From Fervidobacterium thailandense (GTDB lineage: Bacteria > Thermotogota > Thermotogae > Thermotogales > Fervidobacteriaceae): 35,526 nt of DNA. Every line of letters begins with the position of its first letter. Positions within the stretch are counted from its first letter, which is position 1. Below the pieces are notes generated by a model. It did no database searches. It was not told the origin of the DNA and saw nothing but the letters and a program-made list of their open reading frames with translations. Of this stretch, positions 12,743-30,860 are shown piece by piece. The stretch is from positions 1-35,526 of the forward strand of contig NZ_LWAF01000017.1 in the NCBI RefSeq assembly GCF_001719065.1, read 5' to 3'. Position numbers and translations under genes: made by a program.

Positions 12743-13822
12743 TTACTTTGCAACAATGACTTTACTCAGGTCACCGGCTATGATTTGCACACCTTTTGGT
12801 TTACCATCCATCTCCGTGATTTCAACTTTCTTTCCTATGAGCGATGAATCGATCCTGGCTGAGAAGTTCGAAATTCTGACCTCATCCATCACTATGGAGT
12901 TCTCGATTTCGCAGTTTTCGATCAAAACACCGTTACCTATCGACGTGTAGGGGCCTATGTAGGCGTTCGAGATCGTGCAGTTTTTACCGATGATGACCGG
13001 TCCCCTGATGACGCTGTTGACGACCTCGGTGCCTTCACCTATGCTCACTCTACCGTGGACCGAGGAAGTAGCTTCGATGACTCCCTCGATCTTGAATTCC
13101 TCTATCACCTCATCAAGTATCTTATGATTGGCCTCTATCAGGTCTTCGGGTTTACCGGTATCCTTCCACCAACCGTAGATGATGTGTCCCTCCACCGTTC
13201 CACGGTGTTGGATGAGCCAATCTATCGCGTCTGTTATCTCGTACTCACCCCTCCAGGAGGGTTTTATGTTTGCGATACCTTCGAATATATCTTTCCTGAA
13301 CAAGTAAAGCCCGATTATTGCTAGGTTTGAAGGTGGATCTTTTGGTTTCTCTATCGTCTTCACGATGCGATTGTTCTCCATTACTGCGATACCAAACCGC
13401 GACGGATCACTCACAGGAGAGAGCATGATGAGTGCACTCAACTCTTTCTTTTCTTCAAATTCTTTAACAAATGGACGTATGTCGTCCAGGATTAGGTTAT
13501 CTCCAAGGTACATGAGGAATTCTTCGTCACCCAGGAAGTCCTTGGCCATACTTACAGCGTGCGCGAGGCCTTTCGGTTCCGGTTGGAGTATGTAGGTGAG
13601 ATGAACTCCAAATTCACGGCCATCACCGAGCGTTTTCTCGAAATCTTCCTTGTTTTCTGGGCTAACTATGATTCCGATCTCGGTTATCCCAGCACTTTTA
13701 ATTTTCTCGATGGTGTAAAGGATAACGGGTTTGTTCGCAACCGGTATGAGGTGTTTGGCTGTGGTGTAGGTTAATGGTCTGAGTCTTGTACCTTTACCAG
13801 CGCATAGCACTATAGCTTTCAT
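12743..13822 (-). CDS. Long-form glucose-1-phosphate thymidylyltransferase-like nucleotidyltransferase
   Basis: 359 aa from ATG 13822 (GGGAGGG 8 nt upstream). The N-terminal pyrophosphorylase domain has the signature LCAGKGTRLRPLTY and the conserved Lys of AKHLIPVANKP. 'LQPEPKGLAHAV' and 'MYLGDNLI' carry the base- and metal-binding residues. From about residue 245 the chain becomes hexapeptide repeats (VSIGEGTEVVNSVI, GPVIIGKNCTISNAYI, GPYTSIGNGVLIENCEI), a left-handed beta-helix. This is the long RmlA form common in thermophiles and archaea, sometimes with dual sugar-1-phosphate specificity. The expected product is dTDP-glucose or a related nucleotide sugar for surface glycans. It is first gene of the operon ending in hisS. 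Confidence 0.88.
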   Translation of the reverse strand: MKAIVLCAGKGTRLRPLTYTTAKHLIPVANKPVILYTIEKIKSAGITEIGIIVSPENKEDFEKTLGDGREFGVHLTYILQPEPKGLAHAVSMAKDFLGDEEFLMYLGDNLILDDIRPFVKEFEEKKELSALIMLSPVSDPSRFGIAVMENNRIVKTIEKPKDPPSNLAIIGLYLFRKDIFEGIANIKPSWRGEYEITDAIDWLIQHRGTVEGHIIYGWWKDTGKPEDLIEANHKILDEVIEEFKIEGVIEATSSVHGRVSIGEGTEVVNSVIRGPVIIGKNCTISNAYIGPYTSIGNGVLIENCEIENSIVMDEVRISNFSARIDSSLIGKKVEITEMDGKPKGVQIIAGDLSKVIVAK

Positions 13823-13873
13823 GAACGTTCCCTCCCAATCACCTGCGATGAGTTTATTTTCTATGCAACTACG

Positions 13874-13879
13874 ATTATA
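13874..13879 (-). promoter_or_regulatory. -10 box of the leftward rmlA-like/hisS operon
   Basis: On the complement TATAAT (13879 to 13874) is preceded by TGG, giving an extended -10. TTTAAA lies 16 nt upstream as a weak -35. The start codon at 13822 is about 50 nt downstream. It diverges from the promoter module of the DUF2828 gene. Confidence 0.6.
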
Positions 13880-14023
13880 CCATTTATCTCACTTTTTTAA
13901 ATGTGGATCCGCAGTTTTTTTAAGCCGATTCTTTCCGAAGTTATGCGTTTTAACTCTCGACTGAATCTCCGGAGAGTTGAAATACACATTTTACTCGTTC
14001 TCTTAAAGTCTTGCGAACAATTC

Positions 14024-14058
14024 TTGTCAGAAAGGGGCGTTCTTGCTGTCTATATTAT
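14024..14058 (+). promoter_or_regulatory. Candidate alternative-sigma promoter module, copy 1
   Basis: TTGTCAGAAA (14024-14033), 8 nt, CTTG (14042-14045), 2 nt, GTCTATATTAT (14048-14058). The same bases at the same spacing recur at 15539-15573 before the sigma-like gene. No -10/-35 pair with housekeeping spacing fits here. A GTC-type -10 with a -35 about 15-18 nt upstream is the style of ECF sigma promoters. The ribosome site of the DUF2828 gene begins 30 nt after it. Just upstream is AACTCTC/GAGAGTT (13952-13958 with 13972-13978), a possible but weak operator. Confidence 0.6.
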
Positions 14059-14100
14059 TCGGAAATAGTTGAGTTCAAAAGGCGAGTGGAGGTGTTGCGA

Positions 14101-15501
14101 GTGAAGAAAACGTGGGAAGGTGGTAACTGCTACGAATTTTCCCTGGATCATCACCTCGAGTTCTTCTCAAAAGCCGGTAGCCTGTTCGAAGGGCGCTGGT
14201 CATTCTACGGAAACGAGGAGTCCGCACTCTCACTTTTCCAGAAAATGTGGGCGCTGAATAGCCTTGAGGATAGATTGTTGTCCATGAAGCTCCTGTTCTG
14301 GTTACGCGATTGCCGTGGTGGAGCTGGGAACAGGAGTGGGTTCAGGTCATGTGCCAAGTGGCTCGCGGTCAACGACGCGCGATGGATGGAGGCGAACCTT
14401 GAACTGGTACCAGAGCACGGTCGCTGGGACGACTTGAAGGTCTTCTTCGGGACACCGCTCGAAGAAGCAGCCGCAAGGCTCTGGGCGCGGGCAATAGCCG
14501 ACGGTAACGTACTCGCTGCAAAGTGGGCCAAGAGGGAATACAAACCACTGCAAAGGGCACTGGGAGTCAACGAAGCGGGATTAAGGAAGTTACTCTCCTC
14601 GCTGAGAAAAGAACACATCGTGGAGCACAAGATGTGCCAGAACCTGTGGCATGAGATAGATTATAGCAAAGTCCCGTCTGTTGCACTTGGGAGGTACTCA
14701 CGTGCGTTCATCAGGCATGACGAGGAGAGGTTTAACGAATACTTGAACAGTGTAAAAAGGGGAGAAGCGAAAATCAACACGCAAGCTCTCTTCCCGCATG
14801 ACTGCGTGGCTACGGTTATGAACGGCCACGATGAGCTCGGTGATCTGCAGTTTGAGAATCTACCAAATTATATGCCCGAAAACTACAAGGTTATCGTCGT
14901 TGCCGACACATCCGGAAGCATGTCCATTCCCATCAGTGGTTCGATCCAAGCCGTCCACGTTTCCATCGGTTTGGCGTTGTATTGCTCGGCCAAGATTCCC
15001 GAGGACAACCCGTTCCATAAGAAGTTCATCGCTTTCGAATCCGAAAGCGAGTTCAAAAACTGGAACGGTATGAAGTTCAGTGAGGCGGTGAAAAATAAGG
15101 AGATCTTCGACGGAGCTTGCGGCGGGACAAGAATCGATAAAGCCCTGAAACTGATACTCGATACGGCACTTTTCTACAACTTAAAGCAAGAACAATTACC
15201 AGAAGTACTGTTGATCGTTTCCGACATGCAGTTCCACATGGGTGTGGAAGGGGATGGCACGGAAGTGGAAAAAGTACTGCGAGAGTTCGAAAAGAAAGGA
15301 TACACCCCTCCAAAAATCGTCTACTGGAACACTGCCGGTTACGCAGGGAGTCCCGCAACTGTGAACACGCCGAATACGGTCCTGATCTCCGGCTTCAGTC
15401 CGGCCGTGCTGAAGTACGTTTTCAGCACGGATTTCTCCCCGCGGAGTGTCATGCTCGCAGCCGTCGAAAAATACGATGTGAAACCACCAACGGGATTTTG
15501 A
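14101..15501 (+). CDS. DUF2828-family Ro/TROVE-like protein with C-terminal vWA domain
   Basis: 466 aa from GTG 14101 (GGAGGTG at 14088-14094); TTG 14095 is the alternative. The N-terminal 250 residues are helical, with features I associate with DUF2828: 'LLSMKLLFWLRDCRGGAG', 'EHGRWDDLKVFF', 'LAAKWAKREYKPLQRA' and 'YSRAFIRHDEERFNEYL'. The C-terminal half is a von Willebrand A domain with a full metal site: DTSGS (Asp269), the Thr of GGTRIDKAL and the Asp of LIVSDMQFH. This helical-ring-plus-vWA layout is that of Ro60/TROVE proteins, which bind Y RNAs and misfolded RNAs; the kinship of DUF2828 with TROVE is my inference from architecture. No signal peptide, so it is cytoplasmic. It shares its promoter module with the sigma-like gene 192 nt downstream. 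Confidence 0.75.
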   Translation: MKKTWEGGNCYEFSLDHHLEFFSKAGSLFEGRWSFYGNEESALSLFQKMWALNSLEDRLLSMKLLFWLRDCRGGAGNRSGFRSCAKWLAVNDARWMEANLELVPEHGRWDDLKVFFGTPLEEAAARLWARAIADGNVLAAKWAKREYKPLQRALGVNEAGLRKLLSSLRKEHIVEHKMCQNLWHEIDYSKVPSVALGRYSRAFIRHDEERFNEYLNSVKRGEAKINTQALFPHDCVATVMNGHDELGDLQFENLPNYMPENYKVIVVADTSGSMSIPISGSIQAVHVSIGLALYCSAKIPEDNPFHKKFIAFESESEFKNWNGMKFSEAVKNKEIFDGACGGTRIDKALKLILDTALFYNLKQEQLPEVLLIVSDMQFHMGVEGDGTEVEKVLREFEKKGYTPPKIVYWNTAGYAGSPATVNTPNTVLISGFSPAVLKYVFSTDFSPRSVMLAAVEKYDVKPPTGF

Positions 15502-15538
15502 GGTGTTAAGGCGGTTTCCGGGAAAATTTCTGAAATTT

Positions 15539-15573
15539 TTGTCAGAAACTTGAGGGCTTGACGTCTATATTAT
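15539..15573 (+). promoter_or_regulatory. Candidate alternative-sigma promoter module, copy 2
   Basis: TTGTCAGAAA (15539-15548), 8 nt, CTTG (15557-15560), 2 nt, GTCTATATTAT (15563-15573), identical in bases and spacing to the module at 14024. A housekeeping-like pair TTGACG (15558-15563), 16 nt, TAGAAT (15580-15585) overlaps it, so two polymerase forms may start transcription of the sigma-like gene here. Confidence 0.6.
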
Positions 15574-15609
15574 ATGGAATAGAATAAATTCGATTCGGAA
15601 ATTTGGGCG

Positions 15610-15729
15610 GTTCCCGAGCCAGCCTTATATTGTCTTGAGTATATTTGTTGAAAGCTTATCTTGCTTTAAATTACCTTTGGGAGGGCTGGTTGAATGGGGT
15701 TCAAGGGGCTTGCGGGCTGGCTCGGGAAC
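15610..15729 (+). promoter_or_regulatory. Leader-to-coding 15-bp inverted repeat, possible RNA switch
   Basis: GTTCCCGAGCCAGCC (15610-15624) is the exact reverse complement of GGCTGGCTCGGGAAC (15715-15729). The right arm is codons 8-12 of the sigma-like gene, so the stem closes a 90-nt loop holding the ribosome site (GGGAGG at 15679-15684) and the ATG. The left arm can instead pair through CCAGCC with GGCTGG at 15684-15689, which overlaps the ribosome site. The leader therefore has two exclusive pairings, one blocking and one exposing translation. The 13-mer TATATTGTCTTGA lies in the loop at 15626-15638. Confidence 0.6.
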
Positions 15730-16386
15730 GGGCAAGTGAGTGCGGAGTTCTACCACGAGATTCTGAAATTCGTTGCGGTTTACATTAACTCAAAAAGAGT
15801 AGATTCGAGAAAGTACGGTATGAGCAAGCACGAACTGGCGTACGAAGTGACGCACTCTTTCGTGCTCAAGTTACCCCAGCTACGGATGGAAGTTCTCGAG
15901 CGTTCGAAAAATCCCGAGGCTTACTTTACCGCTGCCCTCAGGAATTTTGTACTGGATTACCTCTCAAAGAATGAAATGGAATACCTGTCGCTCGATTCGG
16001 ATGCTGGAGAGAACAGGGACTGGATTGAGGTCACGATTTCCGCTGAAACGTATCAGCACTCTTACAACGTGCTCAACGAGGTTGAGCTCGAGGACGCAGA
16101 GGATGAAGAAGTTGAGTTAGTACTCGAACAGTTGGTCGAGGAACTTGAAGCATCGAGTCAAAACGTTAGGCGGAACCTGATGGTCTTCTTTCTAACGGAG
16201 TTACGTCAGGACGTGAACACCTCTCAACTGTACGAGTACGGTCTGACACCGGCGAACATTTACAAGATTAGACAAAGAGCCAAGGAGTTTCTAAAGTCCT
16301 TTGCTCGAGAACACGGATACGATGAACGTGCCGTCGTGAAAGCGACATTCAAGTACCTGTCAGCGTTCGTGCAAAGTAACGAATAA
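15694..16386 (+). CDS. Divergent sigma-70/ECF-like factor
   Basis: 230 aa from ATG 15694 (GGGAGG, 9-nt spacing). Residues 47-92 resemble sigma region 2: 'LAYEVTHSFVLKL' as the core-binding helix and 'NPEAYFTAALRNFVLDYLSKN', close to the ECF pattern NPxAYLxxxxRNxxLDxxRR that forms region 2.3/2.4. A very acidic linker follows (residues 130-152, EVELEDAEDEEVE). Residues 160-205 look like region 4 with a helix-turn-helix (TSQLYEYGLTPANIYKIRQR). Known ECF factors pair with an anti-sigma gene, but none is adjacent. The gene is preceded by the promoter module it shares with the DUF2828 gene, suggesting autoregulation, and is flanked by two structured RNA regions. It could also be a non-sigma helix-turn-helix regulator; family unproven. 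Confidence 0.6.
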   Translation: MGFKGLAGWLGNGQVSAEFYHEILKFVAVYINSKRVDSRKYGMSKHELAYEVTHSFVLKLPQLRMEVLERSKNPEAYFTAALRNFVLDYLSKNEMEYLSLDSDAGENRDWIEVTISAETYQHSYNVLNEVELEDAEDEEVELVLEQLVEELEASSQNVRRNLMVFFLTELRQDVNTSQLYEYGLTPANIYKIRQRAKEFLKSFAREHGYDERAVVKATFKYLSAFVQSNE

Positions 16387-16409
16387 AGTAACGAATGAAA
16401 GATTCCCTA

Positions 16410-16474
16410 AGGATGGGTTCAGCAAAGGTATATTGTCTTGATGGTACTTAAACGGGCGAACGCCCACCCATCCT
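16410..16474 (+). ncRNA. Structured RNA after the sigma-like gene, sharing a 13-mer with its leader
   Basis: AGGATGGGT (16410-16418) pairs perfectly with ACCCATCCT (16466-16474). Directly inside the 3' arm is a hairpin GGGC-GAAC-GCCC (16454-16465), so the two helices can stack. The remaining 35-nt strand contains TATATTGTCTTGA (16429-16441), the same 13-mer found at 15626-15638. It begins 24 nt after the stop codon and ends 8 nt before the terminator. It may be a 3' UTR element or a processed or independent small RNA. The stacked stems resemble the acceptor/T-arm half of a tRNA, but there is no T-loop consensus. Confidence 0.45.
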
Positions 16475-16481
16475 GTAACTG

Positions 16482-16517
16482 GCCACCTCCCACGGTGAGT
16501 GGGAGGTGGCTTTTTTT
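16482..16517 (+). terminator. Strong intrinsic terminator
   Basis: GCCACCTCCCAC (16482-16493), loop GGTGA, GTGGGAGGTGGC (16499-16510), then seven T. A perfect 12-bp GC-rich stem, ending the sigma-like gene and its 3' structured RNA. From here to 16648 I see no gene or clear signal. Confidence 0.95.
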
Positions 16518-16648
16518 ATACGCTCTTTCTAAATCGTAAGTTTTCGCTCAACGGAAAGCGAAGACGCGGATATTTGAGAACTTTATTGCATGGGTGAATA
16601 TTTTTTCTTTAATTCCCCGAAAAGGGATGGTAAAGGGTCTTTTTCAGT

Positions 16649-16677
16649 TTGTGAATAATTTGGCAAAAGGTTAGAAT
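16649..16677 (+). promoter_or_regulatory. Promoter of the glutamine synthetase paralogue
   Basis: TTGTGA (16649-16654), 17-bp spacer, TAGAAT (16672-16677). It gives a leader of about 60 nt to the ATG at 16744. Confidence 0.6.
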
Positions 16678-16743
16678 GTTCTCGGAAACTGTTGAGATTG
16701 TTGCATTTTTGAACGGGTGAGAATGGCGCGGGAGGTAGATGTT

Positions 16744-30664: not shown

Positions 30665-30860
30665 TATTCAGAATATCCTCCCTCCGCAAGTGTGCGGGAA
30701 GTCCGGTGCAAATCCGGCGCGGGGCCGCCACCGTGAGTGGGGACGAAACCCACAGATTGCCACTGGCCATTGGCTGGGAAGGCGTGGGGAGTAGGATGAT
30801 CCACGAGCCGGGAGACCCTACTTGCGGTAGGAAGGATGCCATCCTCCACGGTCCCTGGGG
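30665..30860 (+). promoter_or_regulatory. Cobalamin (B12) riboswitch
   Basis: The conserved core is clear: GGGAAGTCCGGTGCAAATCC from 30696, then CGGCGCGGGGCCGCCACCGTGA (to about 30735, read in two pieces), GCCACTGGCC near 30769, and AGCCGGGAGACC at 30806-30817. A CCTAC/GTAGG hairpin follows (30817-30831). Downstream, CATCCTCC at 30840-30847 can pair with the btuF ribosome site GAGGAGG at about 30882-30888. There is no U-run terminator, so control is probably at translation: B12 binding should shut off btuF. Confidence 0.95.

Follow-up and report, generated by a model that had tools for sequence, protein, structure and literature searches.

A candidate ECF-type promoter module upstream of a stand-alone CalpS-family sigma factor gene and a Ro60-like gene in Fervidobacterium thailandense

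Here, we describe a two-gene block of Fervidobacterium thailandense in which one bipartite sequence module, a candidate promoter, stands upstream of a gene for a Ro60-like protein and of a gene for a sigma factor of the CalpS family. The block lies within a stretch of 35,526 nucleotides (contig NZ_LWAF01000017.1, positions 1 to 35,526; hereafter the window), and all of its features are given on the forward strand. Module copy 1 (14024..14058) precedes the DUF2828/DUF7788 gene (14101..15501), and module copy 2 (15539..15573) precedes a leader of about 120 nt (15574..15693), the sigma-like gene (15694..16386) and an intrinsic terminator (16481..16511). That the module stands in front of two genuine genes, as had been claimed in a preliminary description of this DNA, is borne out by Pfam for the first gene and by a CalpS-family profile for the second.

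The first gene probably starts at a GTG (14101), with a TTG at 14095 as alternative start, and the only Pfam families that its product matches above cut-off are DUF2828 (1.5e-30) and DUF7788 (5e-29); TROVE is not among them. In a Foldseek search with an AlphaFold model of the protein (28 relatives, pLDDT 88), the seven best matches were all Ro60 or Rsr structures (best 1yvr, E 5.9e-9), and a sequence search of the PDB gave only a weak match to Ro60. At the vWA metal site, the motif DxSGSM is nearly invariant in the 28 relatives. Given the Foldseek result and the missing TROVE match, we regard the protein as having a Ro60-like (TROVE-vWA) fold within a family of its own, DUF2828; the Ro60 fold itself is a prediction from the model. 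The label "Ro-like" in the preliminary description was thus right as a statement about fold. An Rfam search of positions 13820-16740 revealed no Y RNA near the gene, even at E 10. Calp or cas genes were not found near DUF2828 at 80 loci from many phyla, and the literature accessible to us contained no papers on DUF2828 in bacteria. As a separate observation, cas1 is located about 2-5 kb from DUF2828 in genomes G076 (L077) and G009 (L078), which may be chance; a probable CRISPR array also lies near DUF2828 in G076 (L077), a genome in which no calpS was found.

The second gene encodes a protein of 230 aa. Against a profile built from 14 other CalpS-family members, with the protein itself left out, it scored 73.6 bits (1.6e-22), whereas canonical sigmas reached at most 22.5 bits, which identifies it as a CalpS-family protein. 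Its match to the NCBIfam sigma70-ECF model is below the cut-off (1.6e-5) and covers model positions 19-163 of 165; together with the profile score, this match upholds the earlier proposal of a sigma-like product. The window sigma is the most diverged member of the family (about 18-25% identity) and is placed in the tree on a long branch, grouped with the members from genome G022 and from contig C13 of its own genome, the latter being a paralog that it matches at 3.4e-11. Eleven of 13 aligned family members match the ECF sigma model. Pfam Sigma70_r2 is recognized in seven of 13 members, the window sigma not being one of them, and Pfam recognized no separate region-4 domain in the window sigma. 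Its single-sequence structure model is poor (pLDDT 62), with sigma factors as top but non-significant Foldseek matches, and CalpS-family sequences retrieved only weak matches from the PDB. Since neither a CalpT nor a convincing CalpL is encoded in the window, we refer to the window sigma as a stand-alone paralog and not as a cassette CalpS. Within its transcript, the two arms of a perfect 15-bp inverted repeat (15610-15624 and 15715-15729, spanning 15610..15729) would pair and so join the leader to the beginning of the coding sequence, and the leader is predicted to fold strongly (MFE -61.8 kcal/mol, z -2.6); this pairing might serve translation control. Strong hairpins (z -4.5) are also predicted at 16410-16512. 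The sequence TATATTGTCTTGA occurs both in the sigma leader (15626-15638) and between stop codon and terminator (16429-16441), each time in a hairpin region.

The preliminary description had reported a module that occurs twice with identical spacing, and this was confirmed by a scan of the window. Both 14024-14058 and 15539-15573 match TTGTCAGAAA-N8-CTTG-N2-GTCTATATTAT without mismatch, no further copy was present in the window at up to three mismatches, and 100 dinucleotide shuffles yielded no match at this stringency. The two 35-mers are identical at 27 of 35 ungapped positions (the 25 named bases and two more), as compared to a mean of 20.3 (sd 1.0, maximum 25) for the best 35-mer pair in 2000 dinucleotide shuffles of the upstream regions. 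In the 2.04-Mb genome, exact TTGTCAGAAA-N14-GTCTATAT occurs in two places only, upstream of the DUF2828 gene and of the sigma-like gene. A third copy was found neither for the module at up to three mismatches nor for the 17-base core TTGTCAGAAA-N14-GTCTATA at up to two, and at relaxed stringency the scan for additional regulon members returned background only, level with a reversed-pattern control. The genome-wide scan that had been suggested as a check thus recovered two copies, both before genes, and rules out a dispersed repeat.

Among 61 Thermotogae genomes, the exact 17-base core is present in four, with two copies each in G000, the genome of the window, and in G009, and one copy each in G002 and G017. 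The latter three genomes belong to another genus. The remaining matches to the core at up to two mismatches were scattered over the 61 genomes about as frequently as matches to the reversed control; at up to one mismatch, the latter gave no match in any of the family's 20 genomes. Exact 17-base matches in three viral contigs trace to one shared stretch unrelated to the locus and were taken as chance. In G009, one copy is found immediately upstream of the sole close relative of the window DUF2828 gene (79% protein identity). In a three-way comparison of this copy with the two G000 copies, TTGTCAGAAA and GTCTATAT are fully kept (18 of 18 bases) at a distance of 14 nt, and, a few bases excepted, spacer and flanks are not conserved. 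CTTG, which had been taken for a conserved part of the module, is not conserved in this independent copy and is therefore dismissed as a module element.

The hypothesis that the two copies are non-functional, left by a recent duplication or marking one end of a mobile element, draws on the surroundings of the module in the other genus. G002, G017 and the first of the G009 sites retain the module, yet an insertion sequence comes after it and the DUF2828 gene is missing there (L019, L020, L021). In G009, the module is part of a 250-bp direct duplication, and the duplicate with the intact DUF2828 gene is located 5.4 kb away. Nevertheless, we deem such an origin highly improbable. The two G000 copies are identical in the two blocks and differ in their 14-nt spacers and in their flanks, the distance from GTC to the DUF2828 start codon is nearly constant (48-51 nt in G009 as compared to 53 nt in G000), and dispersed copies elsewhere are absent. 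Because the G002, G009, and G017 copies have one common spacer, they count as a single lineage, and the number of independent module contexts is three.

All copies can be read as TGTCAGA-N15-[CT]GTC. This resembles the signature of ECF41 promoters, TGTCACA-n16-CGTC with a spacer of 16 +/- 1 (PMC3426412), in the TGTCA-type -35 element, in the [CT]GTC -10 element and in a spacer within this range. The -35 elements agree in six of seven bases, the module having G where ECF41 has C at the sixth base. Unlike ECF41 sigma factors, the window sigma has no fused C-terminal domain that Pfam detects. It was alternatively considered that the module is unrelated to CalpS and is either bound by a conventional regulator, which might activate or repress, or is a sigma-A promoter of variant form whose -35 element is poor. 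TATATT would be a fair sigma-A -10 element, and a sigma-A-like promoter, TTGACG-16-TAGAAT (15558..15585; 10 of 12 consensus bases), overlaps module copy 2, such that transcription of the sigma-like gene by sigma-A is possible. However, the gap between TTGTCA and TATATT is 21 nt and thus too long, the hexamer that stands 17 nt from TATATT is CAGAAA in all copies, which leaves no acceptable sigma-A -35 element at normal spacing, and a TGn extended -10 is missing from its proper position. An ECF sigma accounts better for the GTC, which is conserved, and for the gap of 14 nt, and no common regulator gene is adjacent. We therefore consider a conventional regulator site or sigma-A promoter quite unlikely. 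The earlier reading of an ECF-type layout, distinct from housekeeping spacing, is in agreement with these features, and the module is best described as a putative ECF-type promoter with TTGTCAGAAA as -35 and GTCTATAT as -10 element, as judged from its sequence.

The window sigma belongs to a family with a distinct genomic setting, a link to CRISPR that was not apparent in the preliminary description. Relatives were found in a search of 41 genomes in G000 (the C13 paralog), G022, and G014, and a profile search of 293 genomes identified clear CalpS-family members in 14 Thermotogae genomes. Besides G000, 13 Thermotogae genomes have members, which are nearly all encoded in type III CRISPR loci or next to them. 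These loci comprise genes for protein families C4 (about 137 aa), C3 (sigma-like), C1 (about 260 aa), and C6 (about 480 aa), and csx1, cas10, csm2-5, cas6, cas1, and cas2; Csx1 and SAVED were assigned by Pfam, and cas names by sequence pattern and a reading of gene order. The C6 protein of G000 matches CalpL (PDB 7qda) at residues 39-497, i.e., over nearly its full length (3.6e-16), and also Pfam SAVED and the PADLOC model CRISPR-Lon (2e-70). A serine (S155) and a lysine (K198) are invariant in the C6 family, which by sequence is compatible with the Ser-Lys pair of Lon. For C1, the family profile matches CalpT10 in the structure 8b0u (3.7e-6), and the G000 member of C1 matches PADLOC CRISPR-T (8e-13). 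With C6 corresponding to CalpL and C1 to CalpT, the sigma-like C3 holds the place of CalpS in the CalpL-CalpT-CalpS cascade of type III CRISPR, as described for Sulfurihydrogenibium (PMC11417357, PMC12751052).

In G000, contig C13 (L080) encodes, in this order, CalpS, CalpT, a UvrD-like helicase, an unknown gene, a RecD-like helicase, CalpL, and a SAVED-only protein; the contig then ends in a CRISPR array with at least 12 repeats. Contig C28 starts with csm2-csm3-csm4-csm5, and contig C4 carries a Cmr-type locus with Cas10. The window sigma hence shares with the described cascade its sigma family, and its genome also has type III cas genes and, next to a CRISPR array, CalpT and CalpL homologs; in contrast to the cassette, its own gene is solitary, with neither CalpT nor CalpL beside it. 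CalpL is also encoded by G002, G009, G016, and G017. Further observations at the CRISPR loci concern three smaller points. The C4 family of about 137 aa is conserved upstream of calpS in the Thermotogae type III loci (L012, L066-L076) and has no match in Pfam, PADLOC or PDB. The CalpL gene of G022 is apparently split into two overlapping frames (L011:7398-8935). Genus g2 has, in the vicinity of its CRISPR loci, short isolated ORFs (about 100 aa) with a relationship to the CalpT cluster (L073:5914-6213, L074:10868-11194, L075:11057-11383).

Co-occurrence of the module with the sigma-like gene, which had been put forward as possible support, was recovered as a pattern, as each of the four genomes that carry the exact module also has CalpS and CalpL, with CalpT adjoining CalpS. 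Yet against a background of 12 CalpS genomes among the 20 of the family, this is not significant on its own (about p = 0.1), and the four genomes are not phylogenetically independent. G016 and other CalpS genomes are without the module. The sister species G001 has no exact module, no DUF2828, and no CalpS, and has four ordinary sigma70-family genes in common with G000, which leaves the CalpS-family genes as the extra sigmas of the latter.

We think it probable that a CalpS-family sigma factor recognizes the module as its promoter and drives from it the window sigma gene and the Ro60-like gene, which supports the preliminary description in part. Either of the two G000 paralogs may bind the module. 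The promoter might be real and be read by the CalpS of the C13 cassette only, with the window sigma having different targets or acting further down the cascade. G002, G009, and G017 keep the module, and the only CalpS type found in them is that of the CRISPR locus, which favors recognition by the cassette type at least in G009. Among the family members, moreover, the window sigma has diverged most; it groups with the C13 copy on a long branch and has no CalpT beside it. On the other hand, the module stands directly upstream of the window sigma gene, as is predicted by the autoregulation of ECF sigma factors, and we think exclusive use by the C13 cassette unlikely. The module was not found upstream of the CRISPR-locus calpS operons, which have sigma-A-type promoters, so that no rule links CalpS genes to the module outside the window. 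The module in G000 would be read either by the window sigma itself or by the cassette CalpS with the window sigma as a second tier.

Under the preferred reading of a promoter recognized by the CalpS family, it is intriguing to propose how the block could be connected to CRISPR signaling. Briefly, a type III CRISPR complex would sense foreign RNA, and cA4 would activate CalpL, which is encoded on another contig. CalpL would then cleave CalpT and thereby set CalpS free, and freed CalpS would fire the module promoters. Through positive feedback on its own gene, the window sigma could amplify the response, and production of the Ro60-like RNA-binding protein would start from the module promoter upstream of the DUF2828 gene. 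The regulon would thus consist of two genes, the stand-alone CalpS-family gene and the Ro60-like DUF2828 gene upstream of it. Promoter activity, recognition by the CalpS family, the link to cA4 signaling and the role of the Ro60-like protein are all parts that we infer in this scheme. The complete two-tier cascade, in which the CRISPR alarm (cA4, CalpL, CalpT, CalpS) is passed to a distant self-amplifying CalpS-family sigma and from there to an antiviral Ro60-like protein, is offered tentatively, as a possible and not as the expected outcome.

A transcriptional response to phage is the role attributed to CalpS in bacteria. In the accessible parts of the published work we found no CalpS target promoter, and the follow-up papers, as far as accessible, name no CalpS target. 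The nearest precedent with a known motif is CASP-sigma of the type III-E Craspase system (PMC10028731), which is likewise a CRISPR-tied ECF-type sigma with a bipartite motif upstream of defense genes. CASP-sigma motifs were described at cas1 and two other genes of the locus, and autoregulation was inferred (PMC10028731). CASP-sigma differs from the present case in its effector (Cas7-11/Csx29 and Csx30) and in predicted targets that include cas1 and not a Ro60-like gene, and its sequence relation to the CalpS family is weak, with two of 13 members matching NF041236. For the output gene, a parallel is provided by the rsr-yrlBA-rtcBA operon of Salmonella, which is under control of RtcR and sigma-54 (PMC7790460). 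There, too, a Ro60 ortholog depends on an alternative sigma route, and the sensor has a CARF-type domain; in contrast to the window block, this route uses sigma-54 together with an enhancer-binding protein that senses tRNA fragments, whereas no Y RNA was found and no rtc genes are adjacent at the window block.

The combination of a candidate promoter for the CalpS family and a Ro60-like gene as its output is, to the extent that we have checked, new. A CalpS-family member has this candidate promoter upstream of its own gene, and the same promoter precedes a Ro60-like gene in two genera. What a CRISPR-released sigma switches on thereby becomes a testable question, posed for a specific pair of promoters and a specific pair of proteins. 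If true, Ro60-type RNA-binding proteins would be linked to CRISPR signaling, paralleling the CARF-regulated Ro operon of Salmonella. Elsewhere in the window, a cobalamin riboswitch (30671-30839) is located upstream of a gene pair for a substrate-binding protein and a permease.
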